This document shows positions 11,954-30,020 of a stretch of DNA of 64,000 bases, one piece after another. The DNA comes from Taurinivorans muris (lineage in GTDB: Bacteria > Desulfobacterota > Desulfovibrionia > Desulfovibrionales > Desulfovibrionaceae). The position numbers and the translations under genes are program-made. The DNA is taken from the NCBI RefSeq assembly GCF_025232395.1, contig NZ_CP065938.1, positions 2,046,001 to 2,110,000 of the forward strand. Reading direction: 5' to 3'. Below the pieces are notes generated by a model. The model saw nothing but the letters and a program-made list of their open reading frames with translations, had not been told where the DNA came from and searched no databases. How positions within the stretch are numbered: the first letter of the stretch is position 1; every line of letters begins with the position of its first letter.

Positions 11954-11974
11954 TGATAAAAGGTAGTGCTTGGT

Positions 11975-13132
11975 ATGAAAACTATTGCAGAAATCAATGA
12001 AAGGATTAAGCAGGGCAGAGCCGTCGTATTGACGGCGGAGGAAATGACAAAAGCCGTCAAGGAAATGGGAGCGGAAAAAGCAGCAAAGGAAATCGATGTT
12101 GTCACTACGGGAACATTTTCTCCCATGTGTTCTTCCGGCATGCTTTTCAATATAGGGCAAACGGAAGCGCCGACTCTCCGCGCAAGCAAGATGTGGCTCA
12201 ATGACGTGCCTTGCCATGCCGGGCTTGCCGCTGTCGACGGTTTTGTCGGGGCAACGGAAATGCGCGAGGGTGACCCGCTGAATCAGGTTTATCCCGGAGA
12301 ATTTCACTATGGCGGAGCGCATGTCATTGAAGATTTAATTGCGGGACGGAAGGTGAAACTCCGCTGTGAAAGTTATACGACGGACTGTTATCCCAAAAAA
12401 TCCTTTGAGCGCGAAATCACCATTCACGATTTGAAATATGCGCATATGCTCAATCCCCGCAACTGTTACCAAAATTATAATGTGGCGGTGAATGAGAACG
12501 CCCACAAGACGCTCTATACCTATATGGGGGCGCTGAAGCCGCACTTGCAGAACGCTAATTTTGCGACATCGGGCGAGCTTTCTCCGCTTTTCAACGACCC
12601 GTATTTTAAAACTATCGGTTTGGGCACCCGTATTTTCTTGGGCGGCGGAATCGGTTATGTCATCGGTTCAGGCACGCAGCATGTTCCAAATCCGAAGCGC
12701 ACGGAAAAAGGCGTTCCCATGTCCGCTTCCGGAACGCTTATGGTGAAAGGCGATATGAAAGCCATGTCCGACAGGTATGTCAGAGCCCATTCTCTGTTCG
12801 GATACGGAGTAAGCCTCGCTGTCGGCATAGGTATTCCCATTCCCGTTTTAAATGCGGAAATAGCGCAATACACCGGTGTCGGCAACGAAGATATTTTGAT
12901 GCCTGTAAAAGATTATTCCCTCGATTATCAAAACTGCAGTTCGCGTGTCATCAAACATGTGAGTTATGCGGAGCTTATAAGCGGTTCTATCGATATCGAC
13001 GGAAAAAAAGTGCCGACACATCCGCTTACTTCCTATCAGCGTTCTTTGGAAATAGCCGAAGAGCTGAAAAAGCGGATAGAAAAAGGAGCATTTTTATTAA
13101 CCCAGCCGGTGGAAAATATTGAAGCGTATTAA
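11975..13132 (+). CDS. Homocysteine biosynthesis protein (COG1900/DUF39, aspartate-semialdehyde sulfur transfer)
   Basis: About 385 residues matching the DUF39 family from start to end. Conserved stretches are GTFSPMCSSGMLFNIGQ near the N-terminus, LNDVPCHAGLAAVDGFVGATE, and the glycine-rich RIFLGGGIGYVIGSGTQH. Members of this family in methanogens and sulfate reducers convert aspartate semialdehyde plus sulfide (or a protein persulfide) to homocysteine, replacing the O-acylhomoserine route; conserved cysteines are thought to carry the sulfur. The methanogen partner, a NIL-domain ferredoxin, is not adjacent here. ATG 11975 is preferred over GTG 11966, which lies too close to AAAGG. Confidence 0.85.
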   Translation: MKTIAEINERIKQGRAVVLTAEEMTKAVKEMGAEKAAKEIDVVTTGTFSPMCSSGMLFNIGQTEAPTLRASKMWLNDVPCHAGLAAVDGFVGATEMREGDPLNQVYPGEFHYGGAHVIEDLIAGRKVKLRCESYTTDCYPKKSFEREITIHDLKYAHMLNPRNCYQNYNVAVNENAHKTLYTYMGALKPHLQNANFATSGELSPLFNDPYFKTIGLGTRIFLGGGIGYVIGSGTQHVPNPKRTEKGVPMSASGTLMVKGDMKAMSDRYVRAHSLFGYGVSLAVGIGIPIPVLNAEIAQYTGVGNEDILMPVKDYSLDYQNCSSRVIKHVSYAELISGSIDIDGKKVPTHPLTSYQRSLEIAEELKKRIEKGAFLLTQPVENIEAY

Positions 13133-13140
13133 AAAAAATC

Positions 13141-13169
13141 TTGACAAGCGAAAAAGAAGGGAATAATTA
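13141..13169 (+). promoter_or_regulatory. Promoter of the aromatic amino acid operon
   Basis: A perfect TTGACA at 13141-13146 is followed by A/T-rich -10 candidates (AATAAT 13162-13167 or TAATTA 13164-13169). Transcription from here would begin about 25 bases before the leader peptide gene. Confidence 0.55.
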
Positions 13170-13198
13170 AATAATTAATTCAAATGAGGAATTAAAGA

Positions 13199-13294
13199 AT
13201 GAATAACACTATGCATAACCAAGCAACGTTCAACAGCTTTTACTTTAGCTATTATTATGGAGAAAGTGCCTGTGGTTATGGGTATTGTGTTTAG
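13199..13294 (+). CDS. Phe/Tyr-rich leader peptide of the aromatic operon
   Basis: A 31-codon reading frame with a good ribosome binding site (GAGGA, 8 bases before the ATG). It encodes a peptide with three Phe and six Tyr; residues 10-20 read TFNSFYFSYYY and two more Tyr follow at 27 and 29. It is followed 22 bases later by a terminator and then by genes for ADH synthase, DHQ synthase II and prephenate dehydratase. This is the arrangement of a classical attenuation leader such as pheL. Ribosome stalling at Phe or Tyr codons, when charged tRNA is scarce, would favour read-through into the biosynthetic genes. Function is inferred from composition and position. Confidence 0.82.
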   Translation: MNNTMHNQATFNSFYFSYYYGESACGYGYCV

Positions 13295-13316
13295 TCATAT
13301 CTAAAAAAATACTATG

Positions 13317-13350
13317 AAAACCACGGCACATTAGGTCCGTGGTTTTTTTT
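13317..13350 (+). terminator. Attenuator (terminator arm) of the aromatic operon leader
   Basis: AAAACCACGG (13317-13326) pairs with CCGTGGTTTT (13337-13346) and runs into eight T. A competing partner lies inside the leader gene: GTGGTT at 13272-13277, with CC at 13269-13270, is complementary to AACCACGG of the 5' arm. An antiterminator can therefore form when that stretch is left free. Confidence 0.85.
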
Positions 13351-13404
13351 ATTTTCTGAAAAACGTCACGGATGAAATAAAATGCTGTGGAAAAGGAGAT
13401 TGTT

Positions 13405-14205
13405 ATGAGTATCGGTAAAAAAATTCGTTTGGAACGCATTTTCAATCGTGAAACGAACCGCTGTATTATTGTTCCCATGGACCATGGTGTTTCTGTCGGT
13501 CCATGCCAGGGGCTTGTCAACATGCGTGAAACCGTGCAGGATATGTCTGTCGGCGGAGCGGACGCCGTGCTTATGCACAAAGGTTTGGTGCGCTGCGGGC
13601 ATAGAACGAGCGGAAAGGATTTGGGGCTTATCGTGCATTTATCCGCTTCAACGGATTTATCTCCCCATGCCAATTCAAAAACTTTGGTCGCAACGGTTGA
13701 AGAAGCTATCCGTCTCGGAGCGGACGCCGTATCCATTCATGTAAATATCGGTGATGAATTGGAACGTGAAATGCTTGCTCAAATGGGAAGAGTGAGCGAG
13801 GCGACCGAAAGATGGGGTATGCCGCTTCTTGCCATGGTATATGCCCGCGGTCCGAAAATTCAAAATTCCTATGATCCGGATTTGATCGCCCACTGCGCAA
13901 GGGTCGGGGTCGAACTTGGCGCCGATGTCGTAAAAGTTCCTTACTCCGGCGATATGGACAGTTTCGCCCATGTTGTTGAATCTTGCTGCATTCCTGTTGT
14001 CATCGCAGGCGGGGCGAAAATGAATTCCACAAAAGACTTTTTGCAGGTTGTGCATGATTCCGTAAAAGCGGGCGGAGCGGGTTTATCTGTCGGACGCAAT
14101 GTTTTCCAACATCCGAACAGACGTCAGCTGCTTCATGTTTTGCGCGGTGTCGTGCATGAAGGCTGGACCATGGAAAAAGCCTTGCAGGAAATGGGAGAAG
14201 AATAA
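13405..14205 (+). CDS. 2-amino-3,7-dideoxy-D-threo-hept-6-ulosonate (ADH) synthase
   Basis: About 266 residues of the class I (Schiff-base) aldolase family of archaeal AroA'/FbaB type. The N-terminal [22 protein letters not shown] is diagnostic, and the likely catalytic lysine sits in [10 protein letters not shown]. It joins aspartate semialdehyde to a 6-deoxy-5-ketofructose phosphate-type donor to start the DAHP-independent route to 3-dehydroquinate known from methanogens and Desulfovibrio. ATG 13405 follows AAAAGGAGA; the in-frame GTG at 13387 has no such site. It overlaps the next gene by one base and lies under the Phe/Tyr attenuator. Confidence 0.9.
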
Positions 14206-15191
14206 TGAAACGTACTGTTTTTGCTGAAATTTCGCCCTTTGATAAGGATGCCGTTTTGCTTGCTCTTGAGGCCGGTGTCGACGGTATTGTTACGGAAGAC
14301 GCTCATATCGAAGAAATCAAGGGCTTGGCAAGAGTACAGTTTCTAGGCATGTCAGGCGTCAAATGCTTTGCCTTGGATAAAAAGGAAGACGAACTCGCGT
14401 ATGAGAACGCCGTGCGCCAAAATCCCGCTGTTTTGCATACGTTGACGAAATTTGAAATCATTCCGGTGGAAAATCTTTTGGCGAAACCTGACATCGCGCA
14501 GAATATTTGCCTGACTGTCAATTCCTATGCCGAAGCGAAGCTCGCTTTTGGAATTTTGGAACGGGGCGTTGAAAAAATCATCGTTTCCGGGCAGGGTTTG
14601 GCTGATATCCGAAAAATAATGGAATTAGCCCAAACCGGCGGCGAAACCATGCAGCTTGAAGCCGCCGTGATTACCAAAATCCAGACTGTGGGTTTGGGGC
14701 ACAGGGTTTGCGTTGACACGCTGTCCGTGCTTGAAACGGGGCAGGGCATGCTGTGCGGCAATTCTTCCGCTTTCACCTTTTTGGTCCATGCGGAAACGGA
14801 AGATAACGAATACGTCAATTCAAGACCGTTTCGGGTCAATGCGGGCGGCGTGCATGCCTACGCCATGATGCCCAATGATAAGACCAGTTATTTGCAGGAA
14901 CTCCGTTCAGGTTCGGAAGTGCTTGTCGTGGATAAAAACGGACACTGCAAAAGTGCCGTTGTCGGAAGGGTGAAAATTGAAGTGCGACCCATGCTTATGG
15001 TTGAAGCAAAAACAAAGGACGGCAAAACAGGCGGTATTTTCCTGCAAAACGCGGAAACTATCCGTTTGGTCGGAAAAAACGGCAAACCTGTGAGCGTTGT
15101 TTCCCTCAAAGAGGGGGATGAGGTTTTATGCCATTTGGATTGTGCAGGACGCCATTTTGGCATGCGTGTTGAAGAAAATATTACGGAATGA
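14205..15191 (+). CDS. 3-dehydroquinate synthase II (archaeal AroB' type)
   Basis: 328 residues of the 3-dehydroquinate synthase II family, unrelated to bacterial AroB. It oxidatively deaminates and cyclises ADH to 3-dehydroquinate with NAD. Family features visible are the N-terminal barrel half (VDGIVTEDAHIEEIKGLARV), the central GHRVCVDTLSVLETGQGMLCGNSS, and RPFRVNAGGVHAYAMMPNDKTSYLQEL in the second half. The length matches archaeal homologues. Its ATG overlaps the stop of the ADH synthase gene (TAATG), so the two steps are translated together. Confidence 0.93.
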   Translation: MKRTVFAEISPFDKDAVLLALEAGVDGIVTEDAHIEEIKGLARVQFLGMSGVKCFALDKKEDELAYENAVRQNPAVLHTLTKFEIIPVENLLAKPDIAQNICLTVNSYAEAKLAFGILERGVEKIIVSGQGLADIRKIMELAQTGGETMQLEAAVITKIQTVGLGHRVCVDTLSVLETGQGMLCGNSSAFTFLVHAETEDNEYVNSRPFRVNAGGVHAYAMMPNDKTSYLQELRSGSEVLVVDKNGHCKSAVVGRVKIEVRPMLMVEAKTKDGKTGGIFLQNAETIRLVGKNGKPVSVVSLKEGDEVLCHLDCAGRHFGMRVEENITE

Positions 15192-15194
15192 CGA

Positions 15195-16307
15195 ATGGAC
15201 ACCGAAGCATTAACAATATTGCGAAAAGAAATAGACTTGCTGGATGGCGCTCTTTTGGATTTACTCCAAAAAAGAGCGTATTTAAGCAAGCAAGTTGCAA
15301 AAGCGAAACAGGGCGGAACAATTTTTTATCCTTTGCGGGAGAAAGAAATCGTAGCAAAATTGCAGGAACTCAATCTTTCTGCGTCGGGTGAAGAGAAAAA
15401 GCAGGTTTTGCCGTCTGAAAGCATCAGGCATATTTGGACGGAGATTTTTTCTTGCTCTCGTTCATTGCAGCAAAAAACATCGTTGGCTTTTTTGGGACCT
15501 GCGGGTACTTTTTCTCATTTTGCAGGTTTGGAACTCATGGGAAAAAGTCTGAATTTTGTGCCCTGCCATGATTTTAATGCTATTTTTGCGAAAGTGCATG
15601 CCGGAGAAGTGCGGTACGGGCTTGTGCCTTTGGAAAATTCTTTGCAGGGAACTGTTGGGCAATGCCTTGATTTATTTGAAGAATATCCTGTATCCATTGT
15701 TGCGGAGCATTACAGCGGCATTTGCCAGTGTTTGCTTTCCAAACAGCAGGATATGCGGCGTATTGAAGTAATTTATTCACACCCGCAGGCGCTTATGCAA
15801 AGTCACGAGTTCTTGCGGACCCATTGCCCCAATGCGCGGCTTGTGGAAATGAGTTCGACGGCGGAGGCGGCAAAACGGGCAGTGACGGAAGAAAATGCGG
15901 CGACTGTCGGGCATGAGGGGCTTGCGGAGCTTTGCGGGGAAAATGTTCCTTTCCATGTTTTGGCAAAAGACATCGCAGGCAGCAAAGAAAATATCACCCG
16001 CTTCGCTTTGATTGCGAAAGAGCAAAATTCGGGTGTGTTCAGAAAGCCCAAAACTTCTTTCACCTTTACCGTTGTTGATAAGGCGGGGGCTTTGTCGCAG
16101 GTTTTGCAGATTTTGCATAAAGCGGACATCAACCTGTCAAAATTGGAATCCCGTCCTTCGTATCATGCCGTGCCGGGCAGCGCATGGCAATACCGCTTTT
16201 TTGCGGATGCGCAAGCTGATTTACGGGAAAAGCCGGAGCTTACGCTTGCTTTGAAAGAATTTTGTTATGACATCCGTATACTCGGAGTGTACGAGAATTT
16301 GCTCTGA
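15195..16307 (+). CDS. pheA: Bifunctional chorismate mutase / prephenate dehydratase
   Basis: 370 residues in three domains. An AroQ-type chorismate mutase covers 1-90 (LRKEIDLLDGALLDLLQKRAYLSKQVAKAK), prephenate dehydratase about 95-275 (FLGPAGTFSH at its start, the catalytic Thr-Arg-Phe in NITRFALIA), and a C-terminal ACT domain follows from 285 with GALSQVL and KLESRP. The last two motifs form the phenylalanine site in feedback-inhibited enzymes. It makes phenylpyruvate from chorismate. It starts 3 bases after the DHQ synthase gene and shares the attenuated transcript. In other Desulfovibrio aroA, tyrA and trp genes often follow; here the biotin genes do. Confidence 0.95.
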   Translation: MDTEALTILRKEIDLLDGALLDLLQKRAYLSKQVAKAKQGGTIFYPLREKEIVAKLQELNLSASGEEKKQVLPSESIRHIWTEIFSCSRSLQQKTSLAFLGPAGTFSHFAGLELMGKSLNFVPCHDFNAIFAKVHAGEVRYGLVPLENSLQGTVGQCLDLFEEYPVSIVAEHYSGICQCLLSKQQDMRRIEVIYSHPQALMQSHEFLRTHCPNARLVEMSSTAEAAKRAVTEENAATVGHEGLAELCGENVPFHVLAKDIAGSKENITRFALIAKEQNSGVFRKPKTSFTFTVVDKAGALSQVLQILHKADINLSKLESRPSYHAVPGSAWQYRFFADAQADLREKPELTLALKEFCYDIRILGVYENLL

Positions 16308-16322
16308 ACGTGGTGATATGCA

Positions 16323-17675
16323 ATGGATAAGCAAGATTGGATCGCAGATGATTTAAAATATGTTTGGCACCCTTTTACCCAAATGAAGCAATACGAAGGG
16401 GATGAAAAACCTATTTGCATCGTGAAAGGCGAGGGTATTTATATTGAAGATATTGACGGCAACCGGTATATGGATTCCGTTTCCTCCTGGTGGGTAAACA
16501 GTTTGGGGCATGCCCAGCCGCGGCTCGCAAAAGCGCTTTATGAGCAGGCTTGCGCCATTGAACAGGTCATTTTTGCGGGCTTTACGCATAAGCCCGCAAT
16601 TTCTTTGGCGAAGAAACTCATCACGTTAGTCAATAACAGGCTTAAGCATGTTTTTTATTCCGACAACGGTTCGACAGCCATAGAAGTGGCTTTGAAAATG
16701 GCGTATCAATATTGGCAGCTGAAAGGAAAGGCTTCCAAAAAGAAGTTCATCGCTTTTGAAAATGCCTATCACGGCGATACCCTGGGCGCTGTTTCCGTGG
16801 GTGGTATCGATATGTATCATAAAGTGTACCGCCCGCTTTTATTTGATATAATCAGGGAAAAAAGTCCTTATTGCTATCGCTGCCCATGCGGGAAAGAGAA
16901 AGAGCACTGCCGGCTTGAATGCTTGCAGGGCGTTGAAGAAATATTAAAAGCGCGGCATGATGAAATTGCCGCCGTAATCATAGAACCTCTCATTCAAGCC
17001 GCAGGGGGTATGATTATGTATAAGGCGGAGTATCTGACGAAGCTTCGTGAACTTTGCGATGCATATCGGGTGCTTTTGATTGACGATGAAGTTGCCATGG
17101 GCTTTTACCGCACGGGAAAACTGTATGCTTACGAGCACGCCGGCATAGTTCCTGATATCGTGTGTTCCGCGAAAGCCCTTACCGCAGGCTTTTTGCCTTT
17201 GGCGGTGACGCTTTGCACGGACGAACTGTATTACGCTTTTTACGATGAGGATAAGGACGGGCTGAAAACCTTTTACCATGGGCACAGTTTTACTGCCAAT
17301 CCCTTGGCTTGCGCTGTCGCCAATGAAAATCTCGCCATATTGCAGGAAATGAATATGGAAGAATATTTAAAACCGAAAATTCTGGCTTTTAAAAGAGGCC
17401 TGGAAAAATTTCGGAATTATCCGCATGTCGGGGATATCCGGCAGTGGGGCATGGTCAGCGCCGTTGAAATCGTCAAAGACAAGCGCACAAAAGAATGCTT
17501 CGCCTATGAGGAACAAATCGGCAAAAAAATTTATTCGGCGGGATTACGACGCGGAGTATTGCTCCGTCCCATGTGGAATTGCATGTATTTCATGCCTCCT
17601 TATGTGATAACGGAGGAAGAAATCGATAGTTTGCTGCGGCTTGCATACGACTCCATGCGCGAGGTGCTCGGCTGA
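16323..17675 (+). CDS. bioA: Adenosylmethionine-8-amino-7-oxononanoate aminotransferase
   Basis: 450 residues, class III aminotransferase. WHPFTQMKQY at the N-terminus and SSWWVNSLGHAQP are BioA signatures, and the PLP lysine is in CSAKALTAGFLPLA (about residue 283). It uses S-adenosylmethionine as amino donor to convert KAPA to DAPA in biotin synthesis. Residues 180-200 hold an extra Cys-rich insertion (YCYRCPCGKEKEHCRLEC) that looks like a metal-binding knuckle. bioD starts at its stop codon. Confidence 0.95.
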   Translation: MDKQDWIADDLKYVWHPFTQMKQYEGDEKPICIVKGEGIYIEDIDGNRYMDSVSSWWVNSLGHAQPRLAKALYEQACAIEQVIFAGFTHKPAISLAKKLITLVNNRLKHVFYSDNGSTAIEVALKMAYQYWQLKGKASKKKFIAFENAYHGDTLGAVSVGGIDMYHKVYRPLLFDIIREKSPYCYRCPCGKEKEHCRLECLQGVEEILKARHDEIAAVIIEPLIQAAGGMIMYKAEYLTKLRELCDAYRVLLIDDEVAMGFYRTGKLYAYEHAGIVPDIVCSAKALTAGFLPLAVTLCTDELYYAFYDEDKDGLKTFYHGHSFTANPLACAVANENLAILQEMNMEEYLKPKILAFKRGLEKFRNYPHVGDIRQWGMVSAVEIVKDKRTKECFAYEEQIGKKIYSAGLRRGVLLRPMWNCMYFMPPYVITEEEIDSLLRLAYDSMREVLG

Positions 17676-18376
17676 TGCTTAAAACATTTGCGGGCAAAAG
17701 CCTTTTTATCACAGGAACGGATACCGATGTCGGCAAAAGTGTTATTACGGCTGCCCTTGCCCTTTGTTTGGAGAAAATGGGGTATGATGTTGCCGTGTAC
17801 AAGCCTTTGCAGAGCGGGGCATATTTTGAAAAAGACGGTCTTATTGCTCCTGATCTTGCTTTTGTGCGGAAATTTTCAAAAACAATAGCTTGCAAGTGTT
17901 CCTATTTGCTTGAAGGGGAATGTTCGCCGGCTCTCGCCATGAAGCTCGCCCGTGTCCCTTTTTCGCTCGATACCATAAAAGCGGATTTCACAGCTTTGCG
18001 GAAAGAGCATGATATCGTGCTTGTGGAAGGGGCGGGCGGTCTGCTTTGTCCCGTAAGTTTTGAAAACAAGCTTGCTATGGCTGACATCATACAATATCTT
18101 GCTTTGCCTTGCCTTATTGTCGCCCGTTCAGGCCTTGGCACCATCAACCATTGTCTTTTGACGGAGAAAATCGCCAAACAATACGGTTTGCACGTTAATG
18201 CTTTTCTTTTGAACAGGTTTCCGAAAAAAGCGGCTGAAACGGCAACGCAATATGTCTGTGAAGAATTGGCGCGGTATACCGATACGCCGGTTGTGCGTGC
18301 TGAAGAATTATCGCAATTGACTGCGGAAAATTTAGCCGGAATTTTTCAGGATAAGATAGAGCGGGTGATAGGTTAA
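17675..18376 (+). CDS. bioD: Dethiobiotin synthetase
   Basis: 233 residues. The P-loop reads GTDTDVGKSVITAALA near residue 12, VYKPLQSGA supplies the substrate-binding lysine, and LVEGAGGLLCPV is the second family motif. The enzyme carboxylates DAPA with CO2 and ATP. It overlaps bioA by one base, and its last 45 bases overlap the 3' end of bioC on the other strand. Confidence 0.95.
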   Translation: MLKTFAGKSLFITGTDTDVGKSVITAALALCLEKMGYDVAVYKPLQSGAYFEKDGLIAPDLAFVRKFSKTIACKCSYLLEGECSPALAMKLARVPFSLDTIKADFTALRKEHDIVLVEGAGGLLCPVSFENKLAMADIIQYLALPCLIVARSGLGTINHCLLTEKIAKQYGLHVNAFLLNRFPKKAAETATQYVCEELARYTDTPVVRAEELSQLTAENLAGIFQDKIERVIG

Positions 18377-19051
18377 TTTGTTTTGAAATTTTTTATCATA
18401 TTGTTTTAATTGTTCTTTTTTTATTAGCACATGGGTCATTCCGCCCACGCCGGTATTCTTTATGTGCCGCAACACGCTTATTGTATCCGGAAAGCGCATT
18501 TCTTCTGTTTCTTCTGAAAAATGCATTAATCGACAGGGGTGAATGACAGCATTTATTTCACTGCCGTTTAGGTATGTTAATCCCACATTAAAAACTTCCC
18601 GTATTTCCTGAAAATTTTTTTCACCGAAAAACGCCAATGCCAATGTTCCGTCAGGATTTAAACGCCGCATGCAGGTTCGTATGAGGGCGGCAGGGTTTTT
18701 GCTCCATTGGATTGCCGCATTGGAAAGGATTAAATCGAAATTCCGTGTCGGTTCATAATCTTGCAGCATATCCATGTCAAAGACCGTGTAGAGCAGTTTC
18801 GGGAATTTATTTTGCAGTAACTCGCCGTATTCCGGAACAATATCAAGGGCATGGTATTGTTCAAAAGAGCATTTCGCATAAATGTGCTTTGTCAGCGTGC
18901 CTGTGCCGCACCCGATTTCTAAAATGATTTTATAGGAATTGCCAAGCATTGAGGCTAATTTTTCCGCCATGTTCCTTTGAATGAAAGCATTGTCTTCATA
19001 GGTGGAACGGCTTTCATAAAAATTTTTCCGTATTGTGTTCAGCTTAAGCAT
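18332..19051 (-). CDS. bioC: Malonyl-[acyl-carrier protein] O-methyltransferase
   Basis: 239 residues, class I SAM methyltransferase with motif I EIGCGTGTLT near residue 45 and the BioC N-terminal FYESRSTYEDNAFIQRNMAEKL. It methylates the free carboxyl of malonyl-ACP so that the fatty-acid machinery can build pimeloyl-ACP methyl ester. Its start overlaps the bioG stop by 8 bases (ATGCTTAA). The 3' end runs 45 bases into the 3' end of bioD on the opposite strand. Confidence 0.9.
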   Translation of the reverse strand: MLKLNTIRKNFYESRSTYEDNAFIQRNMAEKLASMLGNSYKIILEIGCGTGTLTKHIYAKCSFEQYHALDIVPEYGELLQNKFPKLLYTVFDMDMLQDYEPTRNFDLILSNAAIQWSKNPAALIRTCMRRLNPDGTLALAFFGEKNFQEIREVFNVGLTYLNGSEINAVIHPCRLMHFSEETEEMRFPDTISVLRHIKNTGVGGMTHVLIKKEQLKQYDKKFQNKLTYHPLYLILKNSG

Positions 19052-19670
19052 CGAGTATTTCCTGCCAGCATGAAAAGAGGTGGAAAGGGTAGTGTTTGCA
19101 GTTGAGTGAAATAATTTTTTTTGCGTTTTTTGACCAATGCTTTTCTTGGGCTTTGGGCGGAAAAATGCTGTCTTGGCTAGCTATGAAAGCGCAGTCGAAA
19201 AAGGTAGCTTTTGGTAAATCATAACCTTGTATCGCAATAAGTTCTTGCCGCAATTCTGTTGCGGAACGGCTCGTATCCATGGCGAAACCGATTTTTTTGG
19301 AAAACAGGGGAAGCGTTTTTTCGGAAAAACTGTCGATGGTGAGGGTATAGATTTTTGGCGCTATTCCTTCGCCTGCGTCTATGGGATTTCCGGTGCCGCA
19401 AAAAGCAATTTTTTTTGTAAAGGGAAGCTGCAGCAGACTGCTCATATAAACGCCCATGGACCACGCAATCAAATAGATTTTTGCATAACCGGAAAAATTA
19501 GATTGCGGCACTTCCCTATTTTGATAATCAAAAAAATGCAGACAATCGAATGCGCGGGTTCGGGCGTTTTCCGCCGTCAAATGCTCAATACTTTTGCTTG
19601 TCATGCCCCAGCCGTTGAAAAAAAGGATAAGGCTGTCGCTTTTGTTTTGCGTTAACCATTCACAGCGCAT
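19044..19670 (-). CDS. bioG: Pimeloyl-[acyl-carrier protein] methyl ester esterase, BioG type
   Basis: About 208 residues of the DUF452/BioG alpha/beta hydrolase family: ILFFNGWGMTSKSIEHL at the start, the nucleophile serine in LIAWSMGVYMSS, and a C-terminal HYPFHLFSCWQEIL carrying the likely catalytic histidine. It releases pimeloyl-ACP from its methyl ester, ending the BioC cycle. I chose the internal Met (MRCEWLTQNKSD); a further 20 upstream residues in the same frame would be read inside bioF and do not resemble the family. The gene is flanked by bioF and bioC on the same strand. Confidence 0.87.
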   Translation of the reverse strand: MRCEWLTQNKSDSLILFFNGWGMTSKSIEHLTAENARTRAFDCLHFFDYQNREVPQSNFSGYAKIYLIAWSMGVYMSSLLQLPFTKKIAFCGTGNPIDAGEGIAPKIYTLTIDSFSEKTLPLFSKKIGFAMDTSRSATELRQELIAIQGYDLPKATFFDCAFIASQDSIFPPKAQEKHWSKNAKKIISLNCKHYPFHLFSCWQEILDA

Positions 19671-20791
19671 TCGTATGCTTCCATTTCTGAAAAAAGACGA
19701 GCCAGTTCTTCCTTCGGCATATCGGCGCAAAGGGAAAGGCGTAAGCGGGCAGTGTGCAAAGGGACGGTGGGAGGGCGGACAGGCAAGACAAAAAAGCCTT
19801 TTTTCCGCAAATGGTTCGCCATATTGACAGCATCTTCATTTTCTCCGATGACGGCGGGCACAATGTGGGAAGAAAGTGAAAATTCCGAAAGAAGTTTTTT
19901 GAGTTTTTTCTGTTGTTCCAAAATATGGGTAAAATTTTGCGTCAGCAGAAATTCCGTCCATAAAACCTGTATGGGGGCAAGGGCTGTTGAAAAAATAAAC
20001 GTTGGGGCATGATTGATGAGTTTGTCAATAATCTTTTTGTCAGCAACGCAAAAAGCGCCTTGCGAGCCAAGGGCTTTTCCAAGAGCCGCCATGACAATAT
20101 CGATATGGGGAAGAACATTTTTTTCTTCCGTGCACAAGCCTTGGGCGTTTTCGCCTAAAACACCTGTTCCGTGCGCTTCGTCAAGCATGAGCAGGCATTG
20201 ATATTTTTCTTTGAGGCTGATTAAATCGTTCAAAGAGGCTTTGTCTCCGTCCATGGAAAAAACCGATTCGGAAACAATCAATGCGTTTTTATAGGAAGAA
20301 CGGTGCTTTTTGAGCAAGTCCTCAAGGTGACCGCAGTCCAAATGCTTGTAGCGAAAATAATCCGCATCGCTTTGGCGTATGCCGGCAAGTATGCTGTTAT
20401 GATTGAGTTTGTCGGAAAAAATGCAGTCGCCTTTTTGCATTAATCCCGTGATGATGCCTAAATTGGCGTGATAGCCGGAATTGAAAAGAAGGGCGGATTC
20501 TTTTTCAAACCACTTTGCCAAAAATGTTTCCAAACGCGTATACGGGGCGGTATTTCCGCTTAAAAGGCGGGAAGAGGAAGAGGAAAAAAGGGCTTCCCGG
20601 TACAGATTTTTTGTAAAGGGATTTTGTTTTTTCAGAATTTGTTCAAGAAAACTGTTCCGCAGGTGTTCATTCGTACCGATATTCAAATAGTCGTTGGAGG
20701 AAAAATTGAGGTATTTTTTTTCGTTTCCGAAGATGTAAATTTCTTGTCTGTGTGTTGTGGGGGAAAGTGTTCTTATTGTGCTTGCGTCCAT
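19652..20791 (-). CDS. bioF: 8-amino-7-oxononanoate synthase
   Basis: 379 residues of the alpha-oxoamine synthase family. NFSSNDYLNIG, the hydrophobic SGYHANLGIITGLM, LMLDEAHGTGVLG (cofactor aspartate) and the Schiff-base lysine in MAALGKALGSQGAF are all in place. It condenses pimeloyl-ACP with alanine to KAPA. It heads the bioF-bioG-bioC transcript on the minus strand, convergent with bioA-bioD. bioB is not in the window, and no clear BirA-type operator was seen upstream. Confidence 0.95.
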   Translation of the reverse strand: MDASTIRTLSPTTHRQEIYIFGNEKKYLNFSSNDYLNIGTNEHLRNSFLEQILKKQNPFTKNLYREALFSSSSSRLLSGNTAPYTRLETFLAKWFEKESALLFNSGYHANLGIITGLMQKGDCIFSDKLNHNSILAGIRQSDADYFRYKHLDCGHLEDLLKKHRSSYKNALIVSESVFSMDGDKASLNDLISLKEKYQCLLMLDEAHGTGVLGENAQGLCTEEKNVLPHIDIVMAALGKALGSQGAFCVADKKIIDKLINHAPTFIFSTALAPIQVLWTEFLLTQNFTHILEQQKKLKKLLSEFSLSSHIVPAVIGENEDAVNMANHLRKKGFFVLPVRPPTVPLHTARLRLSLCADMPKEELARLFSEMEAYECAVNG

Positions 20792-29742: not shown

Positions 29743-30020
29743 TTTTGGTTCTTGCTTTTAACTTCCCGCTTTTACGGGGATGATTTTTATCTTTGCTGTC
29801 GTTATCGGTCATTTTCTTTACCGCAGCAGTTAAAGCGAAAACGTTTTTTTTCACATTTTTTTTTAGCGGTTTTGTCTTGCGTGAGTGTTTCATGTGTGAA
29901 TAATGAATGGCAATATGGCACAAGTATCGCATCATTGCTTGTTTTTTCCGTGTTATCAAAACGTCGTACGTGAAATTTTGCGTTTAGGGATTTGGGGGAA
30001 TTATTTCCCCAAAAAAATGA
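29743..30020. other. Intergenic region between CGGC gene and qrcD, no convincing gene
   Basis: Two short overlapping frames occur here on opposite strands (29752-29973 plus, up to 29959 minus). Neither has a ribosome binding site or recognisable domain. The stretch after 29980 leads into the qrc terminator. Confidence 0.5.

Follow-up and report, generated by a model that had tools for sequence, protein, structure and literature searches.

A conserved leader with Phe and Tyr codons and the layout of a transcription attenuator precedes the aromatic operon of Taurinivorans muris

How is aromatic amino acid synthesis controlled where the pathway is entered without a DAHP synthase? The stretch of the Taurinivorans muris genome analysed here (the window; 64,000 nucleotides) contains an operon that begins with genes of the archaeal-type entry route and is preceded by a short reading frame and a terminator, and an earlier note on the sequence had proposed that these form a Phe/Tyr attenuator. 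Our analysis indicates that this is a genuine and conserved attenuator of the classical type, a class of mechanism that is already known. We put the probability that it is a ribosome-mediated transcription attenuator, which would sense charged tRNA-Phe and tRNA-Tyr, at roughly 0.92. It is one form of a leader found throughout the Desulfovibrionales. Codons for Phe, Tyr and Trp are the general rule in that leader; this form has no Trp codon, and its lineage also seems to be without Trp synthesis.

The leader and its alternative structures

The features of the control region, all on the + strand, are as follows:

13141-13168, +, candidate promoter: TTGACA (13141-13146) and an AT-rich -10 AATAAT/ATAATT (13162-13168), spacing 15-16; weak
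13186-13190, +, Shine-Dalgarno-like GAGGA, 8 nt 5' of the ATG; read from the sequence
13199-13294, +, leader peptide ORF MNNTMHNQATFNSFYFSYYYGESACGYGYCV, ATG to TAG, 31 codons; homologous leaders in relatives
13229-13258, +, putative control codons FNSFYFSYYY (3 Phe, 4 Tyr); shuffle test, position conserved in 53 leaders
13266-13277, +, antiterminator 5' arm (segment 2) GUGCC-U-GUGGUU, inside the ORF; covariation and folds
13319-13329, +, segment 3 AACCACGGCAC, common to antiterminator and terminator
13317-13350, +, intrinsic terminator AAAACCACGG...CCGTGGTTTT, stem 13317-13329 with 13335-13346; covariation

The 31-codon frame, its GAGGA site and its three Phe and six Tyr codons were described exactly in the earlier note, and an AGGA-type tract also precedes the leader ATG in the congeners G002, G004 and G003. 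The leader ORF thus combines a signal for translation initiation with a codon run that matches end products of the operon. Dinucleotide shuffling of the region, 2000 times over, never produced a short ORF with seven Phe or Tyr in ten codons, and among the 1499 small ORFs on both strands of the window just three, the leader included, have such a run; the other two (at 29793 and 62308) are TTG-start frames with no evident relation to the leader. Seven of the nine aromatic codons come before the antiterminator arm; the other two, Tyr27 at the edge of the arm and Tyr29 past it, probably play no part in control. The candidate promoter at 13141-13168 is missing from the list produced by a consensus scan. 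The gene upstream of it (11966-13132) bears a weak likeness to methanogenesis marker 16 (127 bits against a cut-off of 364).

An intrinsic terminator lies ahead of the first structural gene; it folds at -17.7 kcal/mol (z -4.8) and ends in the expected run of eight T (13343-13350). Its 5' arm can pair alternatively with RNA inside the ORF. The pairing of GTGGTT (13272-13277) with AACCAC that had been proposed is real but was drawn too short, since GTGCC (13266-13270) also pairs with GGCAC (13325-13329), and the helix between 13266-13277 and 13319-13329 comprises 11 bp with one bulged U instead of 6 bp. This antiterminator and the terminator are mutually exclusive, and one antiterminator arm lies within the ORF.

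RNA ending at segment 3 adopts the antiterminator fold (-22.3, z -4.7). RNA that is exposed from 13255 or 13266 onward folds at minimum energy as the antiterminator (-29.0 and -24.0, respectively), and RNA exposed only from 13272, 13279, 13290, 13305 or 13310 as the terminator; masking the 5' side of 13266-13277, in a check of the kind suggested earlier, thus switches the structure where expected. With 13262-13350 free, the terminator form is narrowly ahead (-25.0; the antiterminator fold of RNA free from 13266 has -24.0). The two forms are then nearly isoenergetic, so the outcome should be kinetic, and segment 3 is transcribed before segment 4. A "1:2" hairpin of CAUAACC (13214-13220) with GGUUAUG (13274-13280) appears in the full-length fold, yet in the window it is at the level of shuffled sequences (P 0.43). 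A first hairpin reached P<=0.05 against shuffles in only 11 of 79 leaders (mean z -0.6), so the pause or superattenuation arm of the classical scheme is without support.

The ORF, both helices, their conservation and covariation (below) and the operon context are observed, and from them we infer stalling, coupling, termination and a response to amino acids. When charged tRNA-Phe or tRNA-Tyr is scarce, a ribosome would stall on FNSFYFSYYY (13229-13258); judged from usual footprint sizes, a ribosome on codons 11-18 would leave 13266 onward free, unlike one that is traversing 13266-13277. The free arm would pair with 13319-13329 as the polymerase makes it, consuming the 5' arm of the terminator, and the polymerase would continue into the ADH synthase, DHQ synthase II and pheA genes, and perhaps bioA. 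With an ample supply of both amino acids, the ribosome would pass through 13266-13277 to the stop codon (13292-13294), the terminator at 13317-13350 would form and transcription would end.

Conservation, covariation and other explanations

Within the genus the leader is kept in all three other species that have the ADH synthase gene, with its Phe/Tyr run and both hairpins (73% mean column identity); in G003 it is found at some distance upstream, about 500-600 bp from the gene. In the family, with hardly an exception, it precedes the ADH synthase-DHQ synthase II-pheA operon. A covariance model, which scores the window's own leader and terminator at 68.2 bits, detects the device in 287 of 297 Desulfovibrionales genomes and 54 of 55 genera; matches in the order are mostly at E 1e-14 or lower, and a handful at the weak end may represent other terminators. 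The conservation of codons and hairpins on which the earlier note had staked its proposal is thus found in both genus and order. Matches outside the Desulfovibrionales are few and weaker (that of G511 lies just upstream of an ADH synthase gene), and weak phylum-wide matches were not counted as members. Outside the order, G520 has a Phe/Tyr-rich leader, GVFYFYFYYFS, between aroQ and pheA (L304, about 1585-1701, - strand); a similar aromatic leader may therefore occur elsewhere in the phylum.

Both helices were judged against slid and shuffled controls in an alignment of 53 leaders. Standard pairs fill 95.5% of antiterminator cells (37-43% when slid) and 91.4% of terminator cells (26-62% in controls), and both sides have changed in 4 of 10 antiterminator pairs and 7 of 12 terminator pairs. 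The two exclusive structures first proposed from a single sequence are thus borne out by compensatory changes in each. Column 139 (A3 alignment) is paired in all 53 antiterminators (as UA, CG, UG or AU) and mismatched in 40 of the 53 terminators, which is not expected of a helix that is kept for termination alone. The conserved mismatch of A3 columns 139 and 157 in the terminator stem may tune the competition between the two structures. For 69 of 81 leaders, the pairing between the end of the ORF and the terminator arm ranks with the best 5% of shuffles (L157, L181, L184 and L202 had no terminator parse in this test).

These findings bear on three other explanations. The terminator might simply serve the upstream gene 11966-13132, with the small ORF a product of chance and the true operon promoter further down; that gene does end just 66 bp from the start of the leader ORF, with no terminator listed in the interval. 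However, the Phe/Tyr run never arose in the shuffles, leader and terminator accompany the aromatic operon across the order, and a plain terminator needs no antiterminator kept by compensatory changes, so we regard this explanation as very improbable. A functional small protein of 31 residues is, if anything, slightly less probable still. In its favour, the peptide has a well-conserved tail that might be a protein motif, ACGYGYCV here and ACGR in many relatives, but the reading frame of these nucleotides varies: they are read as GCC TGT GGT (ACG) in most leaders, as CCT GTG GTC (PVV) in L044 and L155, and as TCT GTG GCC (SVA) in L211. This indicates that it is the RNA, rather than the peptide, that is constrained, and the tail bases covary with the terminator arm.

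Attenuation through a T-box, a riboswitch or an RNA-binding protein in place of a translating ribosome deserves mention because terminator/antiterminator pairs are known in all such classes. We give it about the same very small chance as the upstream-gene terminator: the antiterminator arm lies within a codon-biased ORF, and tRNA genes are the only Rfam matches at gathering score in the window and 15 relatives. The Rfam T-box models do not match this leader, and a T-box-like element, GGTGGCACCGCGG, was seen only before trpE of the congener G001. Ribosome-mediated attenuation by the Phe/Tyr leader is strongly preferred to all three.

The operon and the tryptophan codon

The following genes lie downstream of the terminator:

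13405-14205, +, ADH (2-amino-3,7-dideoxy-D-threo-hept-6-ulosonate) synthase: TIGR01949, 395 bits, equivalog cut-off 299
14205-15191, +, 3-dehydroquinate (DHQ) synthase II: NF002628, 441 bits, a little under the equivalog cut-off
15195-16307, +, pheA, chorismate mutase/prephenate dehydratase: unambiguous by profile, with a score just short of the equivalog cut-off
16323-17675, +, bioA: TIGR00508, 558.8 bits

Profiles agree with the first three assignments made earlier, but the unit may extend further than was then thought, to biotin genes. The bioA gene begins 15 bp after pheA, a site scan listed no terminator-like site between them, and the same order is present in G002 and G004; transcription may read through from pheA, placing bioA on the attenuated transcript. 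In the region 16323-20791, bioA and bioD (+ strand) directly follow pheA, and more genes of biotin type are found on the - strand.

The genus yielded no class-I DHQ synthase, and the sole DAHP_synth_1 match is a KDO8P synthase, so ADH synthase and DHQ synthase II are the only entry found. The search covered class-I DHQ synthase and DAHP_synth_1, and as far as it reached the entry route is, as had been supposed, one without DAHP. The usual operon in relatives is ADH synthase-DHQ synthase II-pheA-aroA-tyrA, often continuing through trpEGDCFBA. Here aroA and tyrA lie together elsewhere in the genome, where no leader was recognised by eye. Tandem duplicate ADH synthase genes stand at the head of the operon in several genera, at L035, L159, L160, L166, L196, L200 and L203.

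The leaders of relatives contain Phe, Tyr and generally Trp codons. Every one of the 29 leaders of operons that contain trp genes has a Trp codon, and so do 26 of the 36 leaders of operons without trp genes (L183, L196 and L199, for which the automatic search gave no usable leader, were left out of this count). The ten leaders without it include those of the four sampled species of this genus. Neither this genome nor its congeners with ADH synthase have a detectable trpC (PF00218); their TrpB is of a divergent form only, and G004 has none. Tryptophan auxotrophy of the genus is therefore likely, as judged from gene content. A lone divergent trpB (G000:C1:1207262-1208404, L268; about 50% identity) lies in a genome without detectable trpC, which is likely a Trp auxotroph and may salvage indole. 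Two other genomes whose leaders lack the codon, G070 and G012, are also without trpC, and the remaining four, G010, G007, G023 and G105, have trp genes elsewhere. Where the trp operon of relatives is split off (L256-L265, upstream of trpE), it mostly has its own leader ORF with WW(W) and a terminator. The congener G001 is different in having neither ADH synthase nor the attenuator; its trp operon, perhaps acquired, has the T-box-like element mentioned above and a terminator before trpE (L266).

This pattern is consistent with codon content tracking the products of the operon, although the formal test has low power: only 2-5 independent pairs were available for comparing the Trp codon with trp genes. 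Parsimony gave seven changes of the Trp codon where trp is not in the operon, a state that makes up 58% of the tree length; simple multiplication gives about 0.02 for the seven, a post hoc value that takes all seven as losses. On balance we favour, with some reserve, a single order-wide leader that reads Phe, Tyr and Trp over the archaeal-type aromatic pathway, in which the Trp codon has been kept for as long as the operon includes trp genes and has repeatedly been lost after they were split off under a Trp leader of their own or lost altogether, as in this probably Trp-auxotrophic genus. The set of leaders is a natural experiment on how attenuator codons respond to gene loss and operon splitting.

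Comparison with known attenuators

The Rfam Phe_leader and Trp_leader models gave no match at gathering score or among permissive matches. His_leader (RF00514) gave a sub-threshold structural match (30.5 bits against a cut-off of 49, E 0.0027), but there is no His run and there are no his genes here, and the match reflects a generic attenuator layout. A literature search found no description of this leader, which older papers on proteobacterial attenuation may mention. The aromatic operon of D. hydrothermalis changes as a block in RNA-seq, with no regulator named (PMC4162548), and the Desulfovibrionales are absent from the main text of a broad survey of premature terminators (PMC2965389). The leader provides a definite control device for an aromatic entry that runs without DAHP synthase in the Desulfovibrionales, and the covariance model offers a means of annotating such leaders, which lie outside the coverage of Rfam.

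The enterobacterial pheA (pheL) attenuator has a short Phe-rich leader ORF and exclusive antiterminator and terminator structures, with pheA downstream. An aromatic-rich short ORF, exclusive structures and a downstream pheA are present here too, but this leader has Tyr besides Phe (and Trp in relatives) and would govern an operon headed by ADH synthase and DHQ synthase II. Because leaders of the Desulfovibrionales generally have codons for all three aromatic amino acids and the form in this genus is one without Trp, calling the device "pheL-like" is right for its mechanism and for no more than that. The same class of mechanism is shared with trpL, and many Desulfovibrionales operons include trpEGDCFBA and have Trp codons in their leaders; the present leader differs from trpL in having no Trp codon, in the location of segment 2 inside the ORF and in a "1:2" hairpin that is without support, and its relatives read three amino acids. 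The leaders of the thr and ilv operons are also multivalent, with codons for several of the amino acids that the operon makes; these are Thr and Ile or the branched-chain amino acids there, and the aromatic triad, or a pair of it, in the leaders described here.
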